DNA of 64,000 nucleotides from Bacteroidota bacterium (GTDB lineage Bacteria > Bacteroidota > Ignavibacteria > UBA10030). The notes below the pieces were generated by a model. That model was not told the origin of the DNA, made no database searches, and was given only the letters and a program-made list of their open reading frames with translations. Location of the stretch: the NCBI GenBank assembly GCA_025454835.1, contig JALONQ010000001.1, positions 124,001-188,000 on the forward strand, given 5' to 3'. Each line of letters begins with the position of its first letter. Positions within the stretch are counted from its first letter, which is position 1. The position numbers and the translations under genes were made by a program. Shown here piece by piece: positions 30,381-41,224 of this stretch.

Positions 30381-32555
30381 TCAGCGACGAGGGGGTCGAC
30401 CGCCGAAACCGCGACCGCCGCCGGGTCCGGAGGAGCGACGTTCCTTCTGCTTCTGGATCTCCTCCATCGCCATCTCTCCACCGGGCAGTAACGCCTTGCG
30501 GCTGAGGCTCATCTTGCCTGCGGAGTCGATCATCATGAGCTTCACGTCGATCTCGTCGCCGACTTTCAACATGTCTTCGACGCGTTCAACACGTTTCACG
30601 TCGAGCTGGGAGACGTGCACGAGGCCTTCCTTGCCCGGCATGATCTCGACGAAAGCGCCGAAATCGGTGATCTTCTTGACCGTGGCGTGATACACCTTGC
30701 CGACCTCAGGAAGCTCCGTGAGGGCATTGATCATGGCGATGGCCTTGGCCGCCGAATCACCTTCGACCGCTGCGATCGTGACGGTGCCGTCGTCTTCGAT
30801 GTTGATCTCGGCGCCGCTCTCTGCCGTGATATGGCGGATCATCTTTCCACCCGGTCCGATGATCGCGCCGATCATGTCAACCGGGACCTTGATGGTCTGG
30901 AGCCGTGGTGCGAACGGTGACAGCTCCGGACGCGGCGTCGCGAGCGCCTCCGTCATGATCTTGAGAATGTGCATCCGGCCTTCTTTCGCTTGGGCCAGAG
31001 CCTTCTCCATGATCGCGAAGGAGATCCCTTTGATCTTGATATCCATCTGGCACGCGGTGATGCCGCGTTCCGTACCGGCGACCTTGAAATCCATGTCGCC
31101 CAGGTGGTCTTCGTTGCCGAGGATGTCCGTGAGAACCGCGACCTTCTCGCCATCCTTGACGAGGCCCATGGCAATGCCGGCAACAGCCCTCGACATGGGC
31201 ACACCGGCGTCAAACAGCGCCAAGCTGCCCGCACAGACGGTGGCCATTGATGAAGAGCCGTTCGACTCGAGGATATCCGAAACGACACGGATGGTGTAGG
31301 GGAATTCACTCTCACGCAGGACGATGTTCTTCAACGCCCGCTCGGCGAGATTGCCATGGCCGATCTCCCGGCGTCCGACGCCGAGACGACCAGTCTCACC
31401 GACGCTGAAGGGCGGAAAGTTGTAGTGGAGCATGAAGCGCTTCGACGTCTCAGGATGGAGGCCATCGAGCATCTGCTCATCCATTTTGGTGCCGAGGGTT
31501 GCCGACGTCAGGCTTTGCGTCTCGCCCCGCGTGAACAATGAAGAACCATGCGTTCGGGGCAGAACGCCTACTTCGATCGTGATGGGACGGACCTGCGTCA
31601 GGTTGCGGCCGTCGAGCCGCTTTCCCTCATCCAGGATCGTCGACCGCATGGCTTGACTCTCGAGGCCATGCAGGACCTCGTGAATGACCAGTTCCTTGTC
31701 GGGGAACTGCTCAAGCAGCGCCGACGTGACCTCCGTATAGATCTTTTCGGTCTGCAGCGAGCGTTCTTCCTTCGAGAGGATCGTACGAGCCAGTTCCTTC
31801 AGCGGAGCAGCCGCACGCTGTCGCACAGCAGCTTCGAGCCCTTCGGGAGGCGTGGGAATCACGATCGCCCGCTTGGCCCTGCCGACCATCTTGGCCAGCG
31901 CCACCTGGGCCGCGCAAAGGGACTTGATCGCATCGTGCGCCACCTTCAGGACGTCGAGCATGTCCTTCTCAGAGATCTCCTTCGATTCTCCTTCGACCAT
32001 GACGATCGAATCGGCTGTGCCGGCGACCGAGATATCGAGGTCGCTGGAGTCGATCTGCTCGTACGTGGGGTTGATGATGAACTCGCCGTTCACACGTCCG
32101 ACGCGAACCTCAGCGATCGGGCCGTCGAAGGGGATGTCGGAGACCATCAACGCGGCCGAAGCGGCGCACGCACCGAGAACGTCGGCGTCGTACTGTCGGT
32201 CGGAGGAATAGACGGTGACGATGATCTGGACCTCGTTCCGATAGCCGTCGGAGAACATCGGACGGATCGGACGGTCGATCAACCGGGCGGTGAGGATCTC
32301 ACGCTCGGTCGGACGTCCCTCACGCTTGAAGAACCCTCCGGGGATCTTGCCGGCGGCTGAAGTCTTCTCCCTGAACTCCACCTGGAGCGGGAAATAGTCG
32401 ATGCCCTCACGGGGGGTTCGCGCGCCGACGACTGTCGCCAGCACCATCGTATCGGCATACCGCACCATCACGGCACCGTCCGCCTGTTTCGCGAAGCGGC
32501 CGGTCTCAAATGTGAACGGTTTGCCGTTGAGGAGGATTTCCTGAGTCTGTTTCAT
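30381..32555 (-). CDS. pnp: Polyribonucleotide nucleotidyltransferase (PNPase)
   Basis: A 724-residue PNPase, the phosphorolytic 3'-5' exoribonuclease of the RNA degradosome type. It has two RNase PH domains (about 10-225 and 315-545) with the segments [20 protein letters not shown] and [13 protein letters not shown], and a catalytic [22 protein letters not shown] domain ([12 protein letters not shown], about 560-615) and an S1 domain ([20 protein letters not shown], about 620-690) follow, then a Gly/Arg-rich tail. It lies 47 nt downstream of rpsO, the common rpsO-pnp order. AAGGGA precedes the start. Confidence 0.96.
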
Positions 32556-32602
32556 AGTTTCCCTTGTCTGGACGCGCCCCTATTGACGCGTCGCGGTCTG
32601 CA

Positions 32603-32872
32603 TTACTTACGGATCTCCAGTTCCTGGATGATCTTACGGTAGCGCGTGATGTCCTTCGACATAAGATAGTCGAGCAAGCGACGTCGCTTGCCGACGAGTT
32701 TGAGCAGTCCGAGTCGCGAATGGTGGTCCTTTTTGTTGGACTCCAGGTGCGGCGACAGACTGTTGATGTGGGCCGTCAGCACCGCGATCTGGACCTCCGG
32801 TGCTCCGGTATCCGACGGACCCTTGCCGTATTTCTTGGTCAGCTCTGCCTTTTGCTCCTTGGTGATCGGCAT
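32603..32872 (-). CDS. rpsO: 30S ribosomal protein S15
   Basis: An 89-residue ribosomal protein S15. The conserved [39 protein letters not shown] and IIQELEIRK segments match the whole family length. The ATG at 32872 is preceded by AAGGAG at 5-6 nt, one of the few strong Shine-Dalgarno sites in the window; the upstream in-frame start is discarded. S15 binds 16S rRNA early in 30S assembly and in many bacteria represses its own mRNA. Confidence 0.97.
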
Positions 32873-32914
32873 TGCAGCTCCTTGCATAAAAATGAAGTTG
32901 ATGATGGTTGAATG

Positions 32915-33862
32915 CTATCGTTGTCGAGCGGCCACAAACGCTTCGGCCGCCGCGCGGTCCCTGTCCATCTGGCGGATGAGCGAGGCCACGTCGTCGTATC
33001 GTTCCTCGTCGCGCAACCGAACCAGGAAGGTTGTCGAGATCGTGCGCCCGTAGAGGTCCTGGTCGAACGAGAGGATGAACACCTCGATCGTTCGCGGACC
33101 GGCCGAATGAAACGTCGGCCGTACACCGATGCTTGCCAGTCCGTACCGTCCGATCCCGTCGCCCACATCCACGCCCACAATGTAGATGCCGTTCCTCGGG
33201 ATCATCTTGCGCGAGAAGGATGGCGCCAGATTGGCCGTCGGATAACCCAGCGTGCGGCCGCGACGATCCCCCGGAATGACGATCCCCGTCACATCGTACG
33301 GTCGCCCCAGAAACGCAGCGGCCGCCTCGACCTTACCTTCCTCAAGAAACGACCGGACGGCGGAACTGCTCACCGGAGTTCCGCCGACGTTCAGCTGCGG
33401 AACCGCGTACGTTTCGAAGCGATACTCCTTCGCCAGCTCACGGATCGAGCTGACGCTTCCCTCCCGGTTGTGGCCAAAGTGGTGATTGTACCCTTCGACC
33501 ATCTCAGCCAGCCCCGTGCCGTGAACGAGAAAGCGCTCCACGAACTCTCGAGAGCTGAGGCGCGAGAACTCAACGGTGAATGGAAGCACCAGCATCGCAT
33601 CGACACCCATCGGAGCGATCACATCCCGGCGTTCTTCGGGAGAGCTCAGATACACGACATTCGCGCCAGGGCGGAGAACCTCTCGCGGATGCGGATCGAA
33701 GGTGATCAGAACGCTTCGTCCGTTCCGGCGTCTGGCCCGCTGGACCACCTCGCCGATGATCTGCCGGTGTGCCAAGTGGACCCCGTCGAACGAACCCACG
33801 GTTGCCACCGTGTCGGCGTCTCGACCGATCTCTTCAAGCCGTCGTGCGTACTGCATGTCCAT
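32915..33862 (-). CDS. ribF: Bifunctional riboflavin kinase/FAD synthetase
   Basis: A 315-residue RibF that makes FMN and FAD. The N-terminal adenylyltransferase domain has GSFDGVHLAHRQII (HIGH-like, about 23-36), VEGYNHHFGHNREG and PVSSSAVRSFL. The C-terminal flavokinase domain has GIVIPGDRRGRTLGYPTANL and NGIYIVGV. The start overlaps the truB end by 29 nt; a second ATG at 33856 has better ribosome-site spacing. It belongs to the rimP-to-pnp block. Confidence 0.95.
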   Translation of the reverse strand: MDMQYARRLEEIGRDADTVATVGSFDGVHLAHRQIIGEVVQRARRRNGRSVLITFDPHPREVLRPGANVVYLSSPEERRDVIAPMGVDAMLVLPFTVEFSRLSSREFVERFLVHGTGLAEMVEGYNHHFGHNREGSVSSIRELAKEYRFETYAVPQLNVGGTPVSSSAVRSFLEEGKVEAAAAFLGRPYDVTGIVIPGDRRGRTLGYPTANLAPSFSRKMIPRNGIYIVGVDVGDGIGRYGLASIGVRPTFHSAGPRTIEVFILSFDQDLYGRTISTTFLVRLRDEERYDDVASLIRQMDRDRAAAEAFVAARQR

Positions 33863-34547
33863 CCTGCATCTGCATGGCGGCCGCCGCTTCGATCAACCGC
33901 TCGATCGTCCAAGCGTCCGCGACCGACCAAGGGCCCACCCGTTCGCGCCTCAAGGCTGTTAGCGTCGCGCCGCATTGGAGTCGTTCACCCAGATCGTGGA
34001 CCACGGAACGAACATACGTCCCTTTCGAACAGACAAGCCGAAATTGAACATTGGGCATGTCCACGCGCGTCGCCTCAAACTCGGGGATCGAGATCTCACG
34101 GTCTGGCCTCTCGACCGTCTTGCCGGCGCGTGCGTACTTGTAAAGCGCCTTTCCCCTGACCTTCGCCGCGGAATACATCGGCGGCGTCTGTCGGCTCGTG
34201 CCGATGAAACCCGCACAGGCCTCTCGGAGGGCCAACTCGGTCACGGCCGCCCAGGACCGCTCGAGTTCGACCGGCGTCTCGAGGTCGTGCGAGGCGGTCG
34301 TGATCCCCAGGCGAAAACCTCCTGTATACTCCTTGTCGTAACCGACGAATTCCGTGATCAGCTTCGTCTTCGGTCCTGTGCAGATGACGAGCAACCCCGT
34401 TGCGCGGGGGTCGAGCGTACCGGCGTGGCCGATCTTCCGCACGCGGAAGATGTTCCGCACTTTCCGCACCACGTCGAAGGACGACCATCGATCCGGCTTG
34501 TCAACGAGCAGGATCTCTCCCGACACGTTGAAATCCCAGACTGGCAT
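33834..34547 (-). CDS. truB: tRNA pseudouridine(55) synthase
   Basis: A 237-residue TruB that converts U55 of tRNAs to pseudouridine. The catalytic Asp lies in KIGHAGTLDPRATGLLV (about 38-54). KEYTGGFRLGITTASHDLE, QTPPMYSAAKVRGKALYKYA and CSKGTYVRSVVHDLG follow. It is somewhat short, since it lacks most of a C-terminal PUA domain, as in other Bacteroidota. The start overlaps the rbfA stop (TGATG). Confidence 0.95.
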   Translation of the reverse strand: MPVWDFNVSGEILLVDKPDRWSSFDVVRKVRNIFRVRKIGHAGTLDPRATGLLVICTGPKTKLITEFVGYDKEYTGGFRLGITTASHDLETPVELERSWAAVTELALREACAGFIGTSRQTPPMYSAAKVRGKALYKYARAGKTVERPDREISIPEFEATRVDMPNVQFRLVCSKGTYVRSVVHDLGERLQCGATLTALRRERVGPWSVADAWTIERLIEAAAAMQMQDGHAVRTTA

Positions 34548-34924
34548 CAGGGGATCGCCTTGTCGTTAGCGCCATCCTCGCGGGACGCCTCATCCAGGTG
34601 GATCTTCTTGAAGATCTTCTCCAGATGTATGGCGTGGTCCATCGACTCGTCCAGCACGAAGACGATCTCGGGCGTCAGCCTCAACCGCACCGCCTTGCCG
34701 ACCTCTGACCGGATCGCCGACTTGTGCTCCTCCAGAAGCTTCAGCGAGCGTTCTTTTCGCTTTGCATCGCCGAACACGCTCACGAAGATCCTGGCCTGCC
34801 GCAGGTCCGGCGTCACCCGTACATCGGTGACCGTCATGAGGCCGGCCTCATCCATGCTGAACCGGCGTTGAAACATCCGGCCGACCTCCTCCTTGATGAC
34901 GGAGGCGACCCGTTCCGCTCGCAT
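34547..34924 (-). CDS. rbfA: Ribosome-binding factor A
   Basis: A 125-residue RbfA, a KH-like factor for late 30S maturation. Typical are MRAERVASVIKEEVGRMF at the start, TVTDVRVTPDLRQARIFVSV and the C-terminal PEIVFVLDESMDHAIHLEKI. The ATG at 34924 is preferred to a GTG two codons upstream. It lies between infB (15 nt) and truB (one-base overlap) in the conserved order nusA-infB-rbfA-truB. Confidence 0.93.
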   Translation of the reverse strand: MRAERVASVIKEEVGRMFQRRFSMDEAGLMTVTDVRVTPDLRQARIFVSVFGDAKRKERSLKLLEEHKSAIRSEVGKAVRLRLTPEIVFVLDESMDHAIHLEKIFKKIHLDEASREDGANDKAIP

Positions 34925-34939
34925 GCCCACGGCCGTTCG

Positions 34940-37579
34940 TCAGCTCAGTTTACGTTTCGTTTCGACGCTCTGGTAGGCTTCGATGACGTCGCCCACCTTG
35001 AGGTCGTTGAATCCTTCGAGATGCAGACCGCACTCGTACCCCTGCTCCACCTCACGGACGTCGTCTTTGAACCGCTTCAGCGATGCGAGCGAACCGTCGA
35101 ACACCTGCACGCCATCGCGTACGAGTCGCACGCGCGCGTTCCGGTGGATCTTGCCGTCACGCACATAGCAACCGGCGATCGTCCCCACCTTCGAGATCTT
35201 GAACGTCTCGCGCACTTCGACGGTGGCCGTGATCTGCTCGGAAACCGTCGGCGCGAGCATGCCTTCCAGTGCCGATTTGACGTCGTTGATCGCGTCGTAA
35301 ATGATGCTGTAGAGCCGGATGTCGATATCTTCCTGCTCGGCCAGCTGACGGGCCTTCAAATTCGGACGCACGTGGAAGCCGATGATAACCGCCTGCGACG
35401 CCACGGCGAGAAGCACATCCGATTCGGAGATGCCACCCACCGCCTTGTGGATCACCTGCACTTTCACTTCCTCGGTCGACAGTTTCATGAGCGAATCGGC
35501 GAGCGCTTCCGCTGATCCGTCGACGTCGGCTTTCACAATGACCGGCAGGTCACGCACCTGGCCGTCTTTGATCTGCTTGGAGATGTCGTCAAGCGTCAGG
35601 CGACGGTTCTGACGGAAGTCCTGCTCCCGTTTCAGTTGTTGACGGCGGAGACTCACCTCTCGCGCTTCACGCTCGTCTTCAACGACGATCAGCGGGTCGC
35701 CGGCCTGCGGAATGCCCTCGAAACCGATCACTTGGACCGGCCGCGACGGGCCGGCCGCTTCCACCCGCTGGCCTCGCTCATCGAACATCGCACGCACACG
35801 ACCGCTCCAGATGCCGACGACGAACGCATCTCCGATGCGCAGCGTCCCCTTCTGAACGAGCACCGTGGCCGTGATACCGCGACCCTTGTCGAGCTCTGCC
35901 TCGACGACCGCCGCCCGAGCTTGACGGTCCGGGTTGGCTTTCAGGTCCAGCACGTCCGCCTCGAGGCCGATCTTCTCCAGCAGGAGGTCGATGTTCTTTC
36001 CGGTCTTTGCCGAAAGCTCCACCACCTGGCACTTGCCGCCGTATTCTTCGACAAGCAATCCACGCTCCGCGAGCTGCTGCTTGATGCGCTCCGGATTCGC
36101 ATCCGGTTTGTCGATCTTGTTGATGGCCACCACCATAGGCACGCTGGCCGCCTGCGCATGGCTGATAGCTTCAAGGGTCTGAGGCATCACCGCATCGTCA
36201 GCCGCGACCACCAGGACAACGATGTCGGTCACCTGGGCTCCGCGCGCTCGCATGGCGGTGAAGGCCTCGTGACCGGGGGTGTCGAGGAAAGTGATCTGGC
36301 GGCCGCTGGCGGTCTGCACCTCGTACGCGCCGATGTGCTGTGTGATGCCGCCCGATTCCCCGGCGACAACGTTGGCACTTCGGATATGGTCCAGAAGCGA
36401 GGTCTTGCCGTGGTCGACATGGCCCATGATCGTGACCACCGGAGGCCGGCCGACGAGCGTGGACACGTCGTCCTCGTAGTCCTCCAGTTCATCGGCAGTA
36501 AACTCATCCTGGAACGCCACCTGGAAGCCGAATTCGTCCGCAACGAGCGTGATCGTGTCCTTATCGAGCCGCTGGTTGATGGACACCATGATCCCGAGAC
36601 CCATGACCTTCTGAATCACCTCGGCGACCGAGACGCGCATCATGTTCGCGAGCTCGCCAACGGAAACGAACTCCGTGACCCGCAGACGCGAAGCTTCCTG
36701 CTCCTGCTCCTCGTGCAATCGGGCTTCAGCTTCCTCGCGACGCTCTTTCTTCTTCTTCTTGACGGCGGCCCGGGCTGTTGCCACCGCGTCCTCGGTCATT
36801 TCCGTCATCGTTTCGCGGATCGCGCGATCGACGTCTGCGACGTTGACTTCAGCACGCCGTCCCTTCTTCTTCTTCTTCGCTTTGGATTCCTCGTCTTCAC
36901 GGGCCGTCGGCGTCTTCGTCGCCACTTTCGTCGGCTCGGTGCGGATCTTCTTCTTCTTTTTCTTCTTCTTGTCAGCTTCCGATTCTGCGCCAGGGGCCGG
37001 TTTGGCCGCCTTCGTCAGGTCGAGCTTGCCCTTGATCGTCAGCCCTCGGGTCTGCCGCGCCTGGAGGGCTTCCAGAGGCGATTGCGGACGCCGCGCAGCG
37101 GGAACCGCCGGCGTCTCGGGGACAGGCGCCTCCGGAATTTCCGCAACGGCGACCACCTCGACCCCCGCATCACCGACCGGCGCCTCAGCTTCAGGCTCTG
37201 GCGTTGGAGCGGCCTCGACCGCTTCGGCGAACACCGCGGCCTCGGCCTCTGGCAAGGATTCGGGCTCGAGGACCGGAACGTCCTCGGCGGCGACCGGCGT
37301 CTCTTCTGCGGGCACGTCTTCGGCGGCCTTCTTCTCGCTCTTCTCCGGCACGTCCTTCTTCCGGGAGGTGCGGAATTCCTGCACCTTCCGGTTGTGTCGG
37401 TCGGCGACGTCCTTTTCCTTCTTGAAGTGGCCCATGACGGCGTGCAACATGTCGTCCGTCACGGTCGACATGTGGTTCTTCGCCTCGAAGCCCTTCTTGT
37501 GGAGGAACTCCAGGATCGTGTCGCTGGCGAGATTCAGCTCTTTCGCCAGATTGTAGATCTTGACTTTCTTTTCAGCCAT
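34940..37579 (-). CDS. infB: Translation initiation factor IF-2
   Basis: An 879-residue IF-2. The N-terminal IF2_N domain (KIYNLAKELNLASDTILEFL) is followed by a long low-complexity region rich in Ala, Glu, Pro and Lys runs (about 60-300), then a second IF2_N-like domain. The GTPase begins near residue 385 with GHVDHGKTSLLDH; SGGITQHIGAYEV, DTPGHEAF, NKIDKPDANP and SAKTG follow. Domains II-IV run to the end (fMet-tRNA-binding C2 domain). It places initiator tRNA on the 30S subunit. Confidence 0.97.
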   Translation of the reverse strand: MAEKKVKIYNLAKELNLASDTILEFLHKKGFEAKNHMSTVTDDMLHAVMGHFKKEKDVADRHNRKVQEFRTSRKKDVPEKSEKKAAEDVPAEETPVAAEDVPVLEPESLPEAEAAVFAEAVEAAPTPEPEAEAPVGDAGVEVVAVAEIPEAPVPETPAVPAARRPQSPLEALQARQTRGLTIKGKLDLTKAAKPAPGAESEADKKKKKKKKIRTEPTKVATKTPTAREDEESKAKKKKKGRRAEVNVADVDRAIRETMTEMTEDAVATARAAVKKKKKERREEAEARLHEEQEQEASRLRVTEFVSVGELANMMRVSVAEVIQKVMGLGIMVSINQRLDKDTITLVADEFGFQVAFQDEFTADELEDYEDDVSTLVGRPPVVTIMGHVDHGKTSLLDHIRSANVVAGESGGITQHIGAYEVQTASGRQITFLDTPGHEAFTAMRARGAQVTDIVVLVVAADDAVMPQTLEAISHAQAASVPMVVAINKIDKPDANPERIKQQLAERGLLVEEYGGKCQVVELSAKTGKNIDLLLEKIGLEADVLDLKANPDRQARAAVVEAELDKGRGITATVLVQKGTLRIGDAFVVGIWSGRVRAMFDERGQRVEAAGPSRPVQVIGFEGIPQAGDPLIVVEDEREAREVSLRRQQLKREQDFRQNRRLTLDDISKQIKDGQVRDLPVIVKADVDGSAEALADSLMKLSTEEVKVQVIHKAVGGISESDVLLAVASQAVIIGFHVRPNLKARQLAEQEDIDIRLYSIIYDAINDVKSALEGMLAPTVSEQITATVEVRETFKISKVGTIAGCYVRDGKIHRNARVRLVRDGVQVFDGSLASLKRFKDDVREVEQGYECGLHLEGFNDLKVGDVIEAYQSVETKRKLS

Positions 37580-37614: not shown

Positions 37615-38952
37615 TCAGGCCTCGGTTCGGTCGCTCTCGGCCGGAGCGTCCGGCGTCGCGGGCGGAGCGCTCGGCACTCTGTCGGCCGCGCTACTCTCAT
37701 CTTCCTCCACCTCGGCCTCTTCCAGGCCTTGTCGCAGCATCTCGACGATTTCGTCGAGCTTCGTCTCTTCGATGCCGAGCGCGGCGATCAGCTCCGACTT
37801 CGGCGTTTCGATCACGGAGCGAACGGTCTCGTAGCCCTCGTCGAAGAACTTGTGGAACAGCACATCGCCAAGCTCCTCGCGGAACTCCGACAGATCCATG
37901 TCATACTCTTCCTCCTCGACACCTTCCTTCAGGACCTGGATATCGTACCCCGTCAGCTTCGACGCGAGGCGCACATTCTGCCCTCCGCGACCGATGGCCA
38001 GCGAGACCTGGTCCTGGGCGACGAGAACCGACGCCTTCTTGGTCTCGGCATCGACCTTGACTTCCTTCAATTTCGCCGGCGCCATCGACCGCTGAATGAA
38101 GACGAGCGGATCCTCGGAATAGTTGATGACGTCGATATTCTCGTTGTTAAGCTCACGCACAATGGCGTGGATGCGTACGCCCTTCATGCCGACGCAAGCG
38201 CCCACGGCATCGATGCGCTCGTCATGCGACAGCACGGCCACCTTCGCGCGGTCGCCCGGTTCGCGAGCGATGCGCTTGATCTCGATGATACCATCGTAGA
38301 TCTCCGGGATCTCGATCTCGAACAGGCGGACGAGGAATTGCGGATCGGCGCGCGAAATGATGACGGTCGGATTGCCCGTGCCTTTGCGCACCTCCTTCAC
38401 GACCGCCCGAAGCGTGTCGCCCTTCTTGTAGCGTTCCTTGTAGATCTGCTCACTGCGCGGGAGGATGATCTCCGACTTGTTGTGCATGACGAGGATCTCG
38501 CCGCGCCCCTTGCGGATCTGGTAGATCTCGCCGACGACGATCTCGCCGACGGCATTCGAGTACTCGTTGTAGATCGTCTCGCGCTCGATCTCTTTGATGC
38601 GTTGGTTCAAGTTCTGTTTGGCGCTGATGACGAGGCGGCGCCCGAAATCGGCCATCGGGATGATCTCGACGAACTCCTCGCCGGGCTCCATCGCTTCGCC
38701 GGTCTTCTCCTTCACCTCTTGCACCGAGATCTGCGTGCTGGGGTCGGTCACCTCGGCGACGACCTCCTTCTCGAGATAGATCTCGATGTCGCCTTTGTCC
38801 ATGTTCACGACGATGTCGTACTTGGCGTTCAGGCCATATTTCTTCTTCACCATCATCCCGAAGATGTCTTCGATGATGCCGATGAGGATGTCCCGGTCGA
38901 GCCCCTTCTCACGGGCCATGAGTGAGAATGAGTCGACGATCTCGTGATTCAT
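37615..38952 (-). CDS. nusA: Transcription termination/antitermination factor NusA
   Basis: A 445-residue NusA. It has an N-terminal RNA polymerase-binding domain (about 1-125), S1 domain (about 130-200), KH1 and KH2 (about 205-345, with VGACVGMKGVRIHAIVRELN and LAIGRGGQNVRLASKLTG) and an acidic C-terminal tail lacking full E. coli-type AR repeats. The ATG at 38952 follows GGAGG at 5 nt; an upstream TTG is rejected. NusA promotes intrinsic termination and pausing. A terminator hairpin sits in the leader of its own operon, suggesting self-control. Confidence 0.96.
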   Translation of the reverse strand: MNHEIVDSFSLMAREKGLDRDILIGIIEDIFGMMVKKKYGLNAKYDIVVNMDKGDIEIYLEKEVVAEVTDPSTQISVQEVKEKTGEAMEPGEEFVEIIPMADFGRRLVISAKQNLNQRIKEIERETIYNEYSNAVGEIVVGEIYQIRKGRGEILVMHNKSEIILPRSEQIYKERYKKGDTLRAVVKEVRKGTGNPTVIISRADPQFLVRLFEIEIPEIYDGIIEIKRIAREPGDRAKVAVLSHDERIDAVGACVGMKGVRIHAIVRELNNENIDVINYSEDPLVFIQRSMAPAKLKEVKVDAETKKASVLVAQDQVSLAIGRGGQNVRLASKLTGYDIQVLKEGVEEEEYDMDLSEFREELGDVLFHKFFDEGYETVRSVIETPKSELIAALGIEETKLDEIVEMLRQGLEEAEVEEDESSAADRVPSAPPATPDAPAESDRTEA

Positions 38953-39022
38953 GTGTTCCTCCAAAACGGACCGCTCGTGGCGCTTGCCTGTCCTTCCCGA
39001 CGGCGATGGCCGTCGGGCAGGG

Positions 39023-39478
39023 TCACCACGGCAGTTCGATGTAACTTTCTTGAATGTCGTCGAAGGCCACCTTGACCGGGGCGTTTCCTTCCACGTCGAA
39101 GCTGAGGGTCGAGCCTTCTACGGAATGCAGCCGTCCTCGGAAGGTCGTTGTGCCCTCGCCGCTGCGAGCTTTGATACGGAACGGCCTGCCAACATGCCGT
39201 GGATACTGTCGCAGCATCCGCAGCGGCTTGTCGGCGCCCGGCGAGGTCACTTCCATCCGGAACGGGCCCTGTAGACCCTCGACGGCATCGAGGATCGGAC
39301 CCAATTCGCGACTGATCTTCACGCAGGTGTCGATGGATACGCCCACGTCGGTATCCACCAGGACCTGAAGCAGGCGAGAGCGGTGGTCTGACGTGAAGAC
39401 GAGGTCGACAAGATACGCCCCTGCCTGTTCAACGACGGGAGTGACGATCGGGATCAGACGTTCGCGCATTGGGTTCAT
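39023..39478 (-). CDS. rimP: Ribosome maturation factor RimP
   Basis: A 151-residue RimP needed for 30S assembly. It has an N-terminal alpha/beta domain (LIPIVTPVVEQAGAYLVDLV, VLVDTDVGVSIDTCVKISRE, MEVTSPGADKPL) and a C-terminal SH3-like domain. Two ATGs compete: 39478, three bases past a T8 run, and 39469. It is first gene of the rimP-nusA-infB-rbfA-truB-ribF-rpsO-pnp block. The promoter at 39522-39552 and the hairpin at 39482-39511 both lie upstream, so transcription must pass a terminator before the first codon. Confidence 0.93.
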   Translation of the reverse strand: MNPMRERLIPIVTPVVEQAGAYLVDLVFTSDHRSRLLQVLVDTDVGVSIDTCVKISRELGPILDAVEGLQGPFRMEVTSPGADKPLRMLRQYPRHVGRPFRIKARSGEGTTTFRGRLHSVEGSTLSFDVEGNAPVKVAFDDIQESYIELPW

Positions 39479-39481
39479 AGC

Positions 39482-39511
39482 AAAAAAAATAGCCCGTTCC
39501 AGCGGGCTATT
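39482..39511 (-). terminator. Intrinsic terminator in rimP leader
   Basis: The minus strand reads AATAGCCCG (39503-39511), six-base loop, CGGGCTATT (39488-39496), then an eight-T run (39482-39489). It is a perfect stem with T8. It ends the upstream ABC permease operon and also lies inside the rimP transcript leader. Confidence 0.92.
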
Positions 39512-39521
39512 CCGAAACATT

Positions 39522-39552
39522 TCAATATACGGCCGCCTTCTTGAAGAAGCAA
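39522..39552 (-). promoter_or_regulatory. Bacteroidota-type promoter of rimP-nusA-infB block
   Basis: The minus strand has TTG (39550-39552), 20 bases and TATATTGA (39522-39529). The predicted start near 39518 is upstream of the terminator hairpin, so the hairpin would be the 5' end of the mRNA. Confidence 0.6.
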
Positions 39553-39566
39553 GAGAGCCTTTAAGC

Positions 39567-40376
39567 CTATCCTTTTACTCCACCGCGAGTAAGCCCTTCG
39601 ATCAACGCCTTCTGACCCACCACATAGACCAGAATCGCCGGAAGCAGGGACAGCACAGCACCGGCGGCCACGAGTCTGAAATTCGCCGAAAAGGCTGTCG
39701 ATAGACCGGTCAGGCCAACCGGGAGGGTCGTCACCGAAGCATCCCGCACGACGATCAGCGGCCAAAGGAGGCTGTTCCAGGAACTGACGAATGTCAGCAC
39801 CGCAAGCGAGCCCAGGGCCGGCTTGGAAAGCGGCAAGAGGATCGTCCACCAGTAGCGCCACGGTGAGCAGCCGTCGATCGCCGCGGCGTCATCCAATTCC
39901 CGAGGGATCGTCATGTAGTACTGACGAAGGTACAGGATCCCGAAGGCATTCACTGCGAACGGCAGGACGATGCCCGGCAGGGTGTTGAGCAATCCAAGTT
40001 GCATCACCAAGCCGTAGAGCGGCACCAGCAACACCTGCTCCGGGATCAGAAGACTCGCCAGAAGCGCCCCCATGATGATCGAGCGCCCCCGGAATTGCAT
40101 CCGGGCGAGCGGAAACGCCGCGGCAGCCGAAAGACCGACCATGAGCGCCACCGCCGCGCATGCCACGATCAGACTGTTGAGCGCGTAGGTACCGAACGGT
40201 ATCTGACGCCAGACCTCAGAGAAGTTAGTCCATTGGGGGTCTGCAGGGATCAACGTTGGCGGGACAGCGAAGATCTCCTCCGTTCCCTTCAAGGAGGTCG
40301 ACACCATCCACACGAACGGCCCCGTAAGGACGACGATCAGCGACGCCATGAACGCCCAACGGATGGCGCGCCTCAT
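39567..40376 (-). CDS. Carbohydrate ABC transporter permease, MalG type
   Basis: A 269-residue CUT1 importer permease with six transmembrane helices. The EAA loop ELDDAAAIDGCSPWRYWWTI (about 180-199) contacts the ATPase. The ATG at 40376 overlaps the stop of the upstream permease (ATGA); the longer open frame is not coding. It ends about 55 nt before a strong terminator. It works with the second permease and binding lipoprotein; the ATPase is probably UgpC at 27.9-29.0 kb. Confidence 0.93.
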   Translation of the reverse strand: MRRAIRWAFMASLIVVLTGPFVWMVSTSLKGTEEIFAVPPTLIPADPQWTNFSEVWRQIPFGTYALNSLIVACAAVALMVGLSAAAAFPLARMQFRGRSIIMGALLASLLIPEQVLLVPLYGLVMQLGLLNTLPGIVLPFAVNAFGILYLRQYYMTIPRELDDAAAIDGCSPWRYWWTILLPLSKPALGSLAVLTFVSSWNSLLWPLIVVRDASVTTLPVGLTGLSTAFSANFRLVAAGAVLSLLPAILVYVVGQKALIEGLTRGGVKG

Positions 40377-41224
40377 TCGTCCCTCCACATCCTCATCTGC
40401 AGTACGGACAAGGCCAGCAGCCCGAGGAAGAGCATCACGCTCAACGCTGCCGCGGGGCCGTACCGGAGGTCGACGAATGCCATCTGGTAGATCAGCGGCA
40501 TGATCGTCTTCTGCGCCGCAGGCGCGTGCGGCGAAAGCACGTAGAGTTCGTCGAAGACCTTGAGCGCCGCAATGCCAGAGATGATCGATGCCACGATCAC
40601 CGTCGGACGCATCATCGGCAGGATCACGTGCCAGAACTTCATCCACCCCACCGCCCCCTCCAATTCGGCGCTTTCCTCCACCTCCTTCGGAATGGCCGTC
40701 AATCCCGCGAGGAAGATCAGGCCATAGTATCCCAGTCCCTTCCAAACGGTCAACGACATGGCCGTCGCCAGGTTCAGCGGATACGACGTCAGCCAGGGGA
40801 CCGGTGTGGAGACCGCACCGCTGGCGAGGAGCATCGCGTTGAACAGTCCGACATCTTCCTGAAAGACCCAGCGCCAGATGATCCCGGCGACCACCATGGG
40901 CGTGAGGACTGGAAGGAATGTGATCAGCCGCAGCGTCGCACTGCTTCGGCCCGCCGATCGAAGCAGCAGCGCAAGCCCGAGAGAGAGAAGAATGACGACC
41001 GGGGTCACGAGCAGGTAGATCAGGCTGTTCCCGAGTGCGGCCAAGGCTGACGGGTCGTCCAAGAGACGCAGGTAGTGCTCAAGCCCAACCCAGGCAGGCT
41101 CGCGCACAAACGAGTGTCGCTCAAACGACATCCGGATGACCTCGAGGAACGGCACCGCCGTGAAGAGGATGAGGAAGATCCCTGCCGGGGCAAGGAACAT
41201 GACGATGGTCGAGCGACGACTCAT
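40373..41224 (-). CDS. Carbohydrate ABC transporter permease, MalF/UgpA type
   Basis: A 283-residue CUT1 permease with six transmembrane helices. The EAA loop lies in EVEESAELEGAVGWMKFWHV (about 185-204). A central hydrophilic WRWVFQEDVGLFNAML segment and the terminal QMAFVDLRYGPAAALSVML are typical of UgpA-like subunits. The start overlaps the binding-protein stop and the stop overlaps the next permease start, so all three are translationally coupled. Confidence 0.93.
   Translation of the reverse strand: MSRRSTIVMFLAPAGIFLILFTAVPFLEVIRMSFERHSFVREPAWVGLEHYLRLLDDPSALAALGNSLIYLLVTPVVILLSLGLALLLRSAGRSSATLRLITFLPVLTPMVVAGIIWRWVFQEDVGLFNAMLLASGAVSTPVPWLTSYPLNLATAMSLTVWKGLGYYGLIFLAGLTAIPKEVEESAELEGAVGWMKFWHVILPMMRPTVIVASIISGIAALKVFDELYVLSPHAPAAQKTIMPLIYQMAFVDLRYGPAAALSVMLFLGLLALSVLQMRMWRDE

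Follow-up and report, generated by a model that had tools for sequence, protein, structure and literature searches.

Promoter, hairpin and operon at the rimP locus

The window, that is, the whole 64-kb stretch of DNA analyzed here, carries on its minus strand an operon that begins with rimP, nusA and infB. Two promoter elements, a hairpin, a tract of eight T nucleotides (T8) and the rimP ATG can be read from the sequence within 75 nucleotides on the same strand, directly downstream of a gene for an ABC importer permease. The importer gene and the first three genes of the operon were assigned by Pfam domains. The remaining block (30381..34930) was named from translations, and the five names given for it below are presumptive. 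The features are listed in the direction of transcription.

39567..40406, minus strand: ABC importer permease (BPD_transp_1; Pfam), the upstream gene
39547..39552, minus strand: -35 element TTGCTT (sequence, and conservation in the order)
39524..39529, minus strand: -10 element TATATT, with a 17-nt spacer from the -35 element
39516..39518, minus strand: predicted transcription start region, about 6-8 nt 3′ of the -10 element
39486..39513, minus strand: terminator hairpin and candidate attenuator, 11 bp by RNA folding
39511-39503, minus strand: 5′ arm of the 9-bp hairpin core, AATAGCCCG
39502-39497, minus strand: hairpin loop, CTGGAA
39496-39488, minus strand: 3′ arm of the 9-bp hairpin core, CGGGCTATT
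39489-39482, minus strand: T8 tract of the terminator, followed by GCT and then by the rimP ATG at 39478
39023..39478, minus strand: rimP (RimP_N and RimP C-terminal SH3 domains; Pfam), first gene of the operon
37615..38952, minus strand: nusA (NusA_N and KH_5; Pfam), candidate feedback regulator
34940..37579, minus strand: infB (IF-2; Pfam)
34547-34930, minus strand: presumably rbfA
33834-34547, minus strand: presumably truB
32915-33862, minus strand: presumably ribF
32603-32887, minus strand: presumably rpsO
30381-32555, minus strand: presumably pnp

The first-pass annotation had described the promoter, the 9-bp stem, the T8 tract and the rimP ATG, and its positions are correct to the base. 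RNA folding lengthens the stem to 11 bp, with a folding energy of -15.4 kcal/mol (z = -3.05). The rimP promoter is the sole match in the window to TTGCWT-N17-TATATT without a mismatch, and six matches are found when up to two mismatches are allowed, versus 0.95 expected. This excess makes the motif look like the housekeeping promoter type of the genome, and TTGCWT-N17-TATATT is probably the housekeeping promoter consensus of the lineage.

In a terminator scan, the rimP hairpin is the only intergenic terminator-like hairpin in the window. Using rough gene calls (longest ORFs), we found 12 such hairpins in 464 kb of the same contig, among which the rimP hairpin alone has a T8 tract and alone is preceded by a promoter matching at 12 of 12 positions. 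Because it is the sole hairpin of its kind in the 64-kb window and the sole one with T8 in 464 kb, the arrangement at rimP is not due to chance. Given this rarity of intergenic intrinsic-terminator-like hairpins, most operons of the genome probably end by other means. The nearest likeness to the rimP arrangement in the 464 kb is a promoter-like site, TTGAAC-N17-TATCTT, followed immediately by a T5 hairpin (L224:10124-10314, minus strand), about 90 nt before a tRNA-Pro gene.

An in-frame ATG is also present at 39520, 5′ of the hairpin, from which the rimP ORF grows to 165 aa. A rimP start at this codon, with translation through the hairpin, is unlikely from the promoter described here. The codon lies at or upstream of the predicted transcription start (about 39516-39518), and the promoter's transcript would therefore use the ATG at 39478. 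Where relatives have an ATG before the stem, it is rarely in the rimP frame. Automatic annotation may set the rimP start at 39520 and thereby hide the leader. The gap between rimP and nusA (38985-39030, minus strand) contains a 9-bp G+C-rich inverted repeat, CCCGACGGC-CATC-GCCGTCGGG, which lacks a T-run and was not seen in the same-genus relative L003.

Conservation of the arrangement in the order

Of 61 genomes, 54 contain relatives of the window's RimP. Loci were first read in 29 relatives, and all of these show the order promoter, hairpin, T-run and rimP, with the -35 element beyond the contig end in two of them (L012 and L018). A covariance model that combines promoter and hairpin matches 72 of the 98 genomes of the order, once per genome except in G012, where the second match lies on another contig and probably represents one and the same site at a break in the assembly. 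These matches adjoin rimP in every genome with both positions listed. Across 49 leaders of the order, TTGC is kept at the -35 element in 45, the 17-nt spacing also in 45, and TATATT at the -10 element in 38; in these leaders the promoter is as well conserved as the hairpin. The first-pass annotation had proposed that a conserved promoter-hairpin-rimP order in related genomes would support attenuation, and such an order is indeed found, with changing genes upstream.

The exact hairpin was found in 36 stretches across 84,980 named species. Twenty-four of these lie immediately 5′ of rimP in relatives named Ignavibacteria, Ignavibacteriales, Bacteroidetes or similar, one lies on a contig end from the same genome as L085 (its location at rimP is thus presumed), and 11 come from unrelated bacteria, mostly just 3′ of a gene on the same strand. 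The named relatives with the hairpin are Ignavibacteria MAGs, which places the window in an Ignavibacteria-like lineage of Bacteroidota. Within the window's family, the exact hairpin with T8 was found at rimP only; the core pattern AGCCCG-N6-CGGGCT has two other matches in the window's genome.

Stems are fixed or nearly fixed within several families and differ between them

The core arm AGCCCG and its partner are identical in all 28 genomes of the window's family, a count that includes the window; two genomes have an extended stem, and the loops are of 16 kinds. Similarly, stems are near-fixed inside several other families and differ among families (AGCCCG in f1; AGTCCC in f2, f3 and f5; TCGCCC in f7; AGTGGGG in f20; GAGGGGAC in f24). 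When the five families of the order that have leaders are compared, both sides have changed at three of the eight stem pairs (pair -2, T-A to A-T; pair +1, C-G to T-A; pair +4, G-C, C-G and A-T), in an alignment anchored on the outermost G-C pair. These hairpins were picked for their pairing, and therefore only the between-family pattern is informative, not the percentage of paired positions. Families with differing stems share a T-rich tract directly 3′ of the stem. CCC stands on the 5′ arm in f1-f3, f5-f7, f10 and f14, and GGG, where a hairpin was found, in f8, f9, f18-f20, f22, f24 and f28-f33. The stem of the window's order reads CCCG..CGGG; a GGG 5′ arm is found in most other Bacteroidota sampled.

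Attenuation versus the end of an upstream operon

A hairpin in this position could simply be the terminator of the upstream operon, with a rimP promoter that merely overlaps it or is inactive. In the window, about 54 nt separate the hairpin from the permease stop codon on the same strand, and this interval holds no other terminator; upstream genes in the window's family mostly run in the same direction as rimP. Against this reading, the promoter is as well conserved as the hairpin. The upstream gene itself varies, from the permease in the window to a trpG/pabA-like end in L003 and L024 and other proteins elsewhere, and intrinsic terminators are otherwise rare in this genome.

We then considered the whole phylum. 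A terminator is present in 114 of the 138 rimP leaders sampled from Bacteroidota (220 nt before rimP). For the remainder of these loci the background is about 0.025 per 420 nt of strand; since this background is mostly coding sequence, the ratio overstates the contrast with intergenic DNA. When the direction of the upstream gene was classed by longest ORF, which left 62 loci unclassable, the hairpin was found in 41 of 47 loci with a co-directional upstream gene and in 17 of 25 loci with a divergent one, the losses among the latter being in f25, f26 and f31. Divergent neighbors were confirmed by Pfam for examples in f9, f24, f29 and f31 (acyl-CoA dehydrogenase, universal stress protein, M28 peptidase and DUF3109). 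The scan found no hairpin in f26 (0 of 6), f15 (0 of 2) or f23 (0 of 2), nor in either of the f25 loci with a divergent upstream gene, and the hairpin is therefore dispensable.

A terminator that separates rimP from a divergent gene and carries its T-run on the rimP strand can act only on transcripts entering rimP. Together with the conserved promoter, the hairpins at divergent loci make attenuation the better reading. It had been suggested that the hairpin would be absent where no other operon precedes rimP if attenuation were wrong; it is instead retained at most divergent loci. The plainer proposal, that it merely ends the importer operon, is insufficient for an order that recurs with changing and divergent upstream genes, and we consider it improbable, whereas the proposal of an attenuator for the rimP operon gains support from the same observations. 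The two roles are not exclusive in the window. Transcripts of the importer permease would also meet the rimP-proximal terminator and, since this hairpin is the sole candidate terminator for the importer operon there, a double role in attenuation and in ending the importer operon is likely. In the window's family, where upstream genes are mostly co-directional, the operon-end role is inseparable from attenuation.

Length of the leader

Assuming a start 7 nt after the -10 element, the RNA before the stem is predicted to be 1-13 nt long in the 49 leaders, and the terminated RNA 28-42 nt (median 38). An antiterminator upstream of the stem was ruled out, as 1-13 nt leaves no room for one. A leader-peptide attenuator was likewise rejected: an ATG between the -10 element and the stem is not conserved, being found in only 21 of the 49 leaders, and its reading frame and length vary. 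With so short an RNA and no conserved leader peptide, an upstream antiterminator or translation could hardly be the switch, and control would most simply be exerted by factors acting on the polymerase and the hairpin.

Comparison with known leaders

An attenuator of this kind is already known. The rimP-leader is a terminator hairpin before rimP-nusA-infB, 4-130 nt from the gene, with a stem of the form GGGc..gCCC (Naville & Gautheret 2010, PMC2965389), and NusA was proposed as its effector on the grounds that the stem is conserved and no antiterminator is visible (PMC2965389). The leader described here shares the intrinsic terminator and T-tract immediately 5′ of rimP-nusA-infB, the lack of a visible antiterminator, and a conserved stem, whose signature (the exact hairpin with T8) is rimP-specific in the window's family. 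Unlike the published form, its stem is of inverse polarity (CCCG..CGGG) throughout the window's order and also in f7, f10 and f14, whereas the GGG 5′ arm of other Bacteroidota families has the published polarity. In some Gammaproteobacteria, a CCCg..cGGG terminator has been reported only as the second, upstream one of a tandem (PMC2965389).

Bacillus subtilis NusA regulates its own synthesis by stimulating termination within the 5′ leader of nusA (Mondal et al. 2016, cited from PMC12288461). Both species have an intrinsic terminator in the 5′ leader of the nusA operon. Measured from the predicted start to the end of the T-run, the leader here spans about 40 nt; that of B. subtilis is 180 nt. 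NusA dependence is demonstrated in B. subtilis and would apply here by analogy.

The Rfam family RF01770 (rimP; a 102-position model) has the same gene context. Searched with this model, the window's genome yielded no hit with E up to 1, and 41 genomes yielded none above its 47-bit cut-off. A known Rfam family at the leader itself was also sought and set aside, the only hit being a chance asX2 match on the other strand. In the same phylum, rimP of Flavobacterium psychrophilum has a structured, unexplained 5′ element, mapped by transcriptome and without an Rfam hit, which is conserved in other genera of its family and for which a mechanism was not given (PMC9723704). It precedes the same gene as the hairpin here, and it may represent the GGG version of this element in that family. 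What marks the leader of the window as a lineage-specific, very short variant is its inverted polarity throughout the clade, its minimal length and the lack of an RF01770 match in the genome.

Proposed mechanism

Taken together, the sequence comparisons support attenuation at the rimP leader well, and the hairpin should stop much transcription before the first gene. We consider it probable that the hairpin attenuates transcription of the rimP-nusA-infB operon close to its promoter, with NusA as the best candidate effector. The analysis demonstrates the architecture, its conservation, compensatory changes from family to family and a hairpin that does not depend on which way the upstream gene runs; we infer the start site, termination in the cell and the part of NusA as effector or sensor. 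A strong housekeeping-type promoter would start the RNA a few bases 5′ of the hairpin. RNA polymerase would then make about 28-42 nt, including the hairpin and the U-tract, and a fraction would terminate, so that read-through complexes alone would transcribe rimP, nusA, infB and the genes downstream. The read-through fraction would be set by factors acting on the polymerase and the hairpin. NusA is the first candidate because of the B. subtilis precedent and the proposal made for rimP leaders in general; it is encoded in the operon and is a known stimulator of intrinsic termination. Plentiful NusA would give more termination and scarce NusA more read-through, and by this analogy NusA probably limits its own production through the hairpin. 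In this genome the hairpin probably serves in addition to stop read-through arriving from the importer operon.

NusA joins the polymerase as sigma leaves. A terminator less than 40 nt from the start might therefore be especially sensitive to free NusA, which we offer as a hypothesis only. A more specific form, which we regard as tentative and rather doubtful, is an attenuator reduced to two parts, a consensus promoter and an intrinsic terminator joined with almost no RNA between them, at which RNA polymerase would read the NusA level within the first 40 nt, aided by sequence-specific recognition of the polarity-inverted stem.

The minimal leader, without sensor domain, antiterminator or leader peptide, would also suit a hairpin that senses nothing, reduces what a strong promoter yields by a constant factor and shuts out read-through from upstream. 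However, promoter mutation would be a simpler way to reduce output, the stem has stayed identical in the family as loops diverged, suggesting more than a fixed strength, and termination at the B. subtilis nusA leader is NusA-stimulated in the account cited above; we therefore regard such constant damping as unlikely. Least probable is a hairpin that blocks mRNA decay, with a U-tract that aids ribosome binding in a phylum with few Shine-Dalgarno sites: the hairpin does lie at the predicted extreme 5′ end and the T-run is three bases from the start codon in the window, but the spacing of T-run and rimP match varies between 3 and 71 nt among loci (one locus with an N run has 118), and T-rich tracts follow differing stems across families, as termination predicts.

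Significance of the proposed attenuator

The operon encodes the core factors NusA and IF2, and its control through a terminator has been called the most ubiquitous bacterial transcription attenuator. The signal sensed by the rimP-nusA attenuator has been demonstrated in few species. In this clade the element is cut down to a promoter and a hairpin, which removes the antiterminator and leader-peptide models, and the clade thus makes it possible to ask cleanly whether the concentration of NusA is by itself enough to set read-through. Its frozen, polarity-inverted stem is likewise a natural test of protein recognition of the stem sequence versus terminator strength alone.
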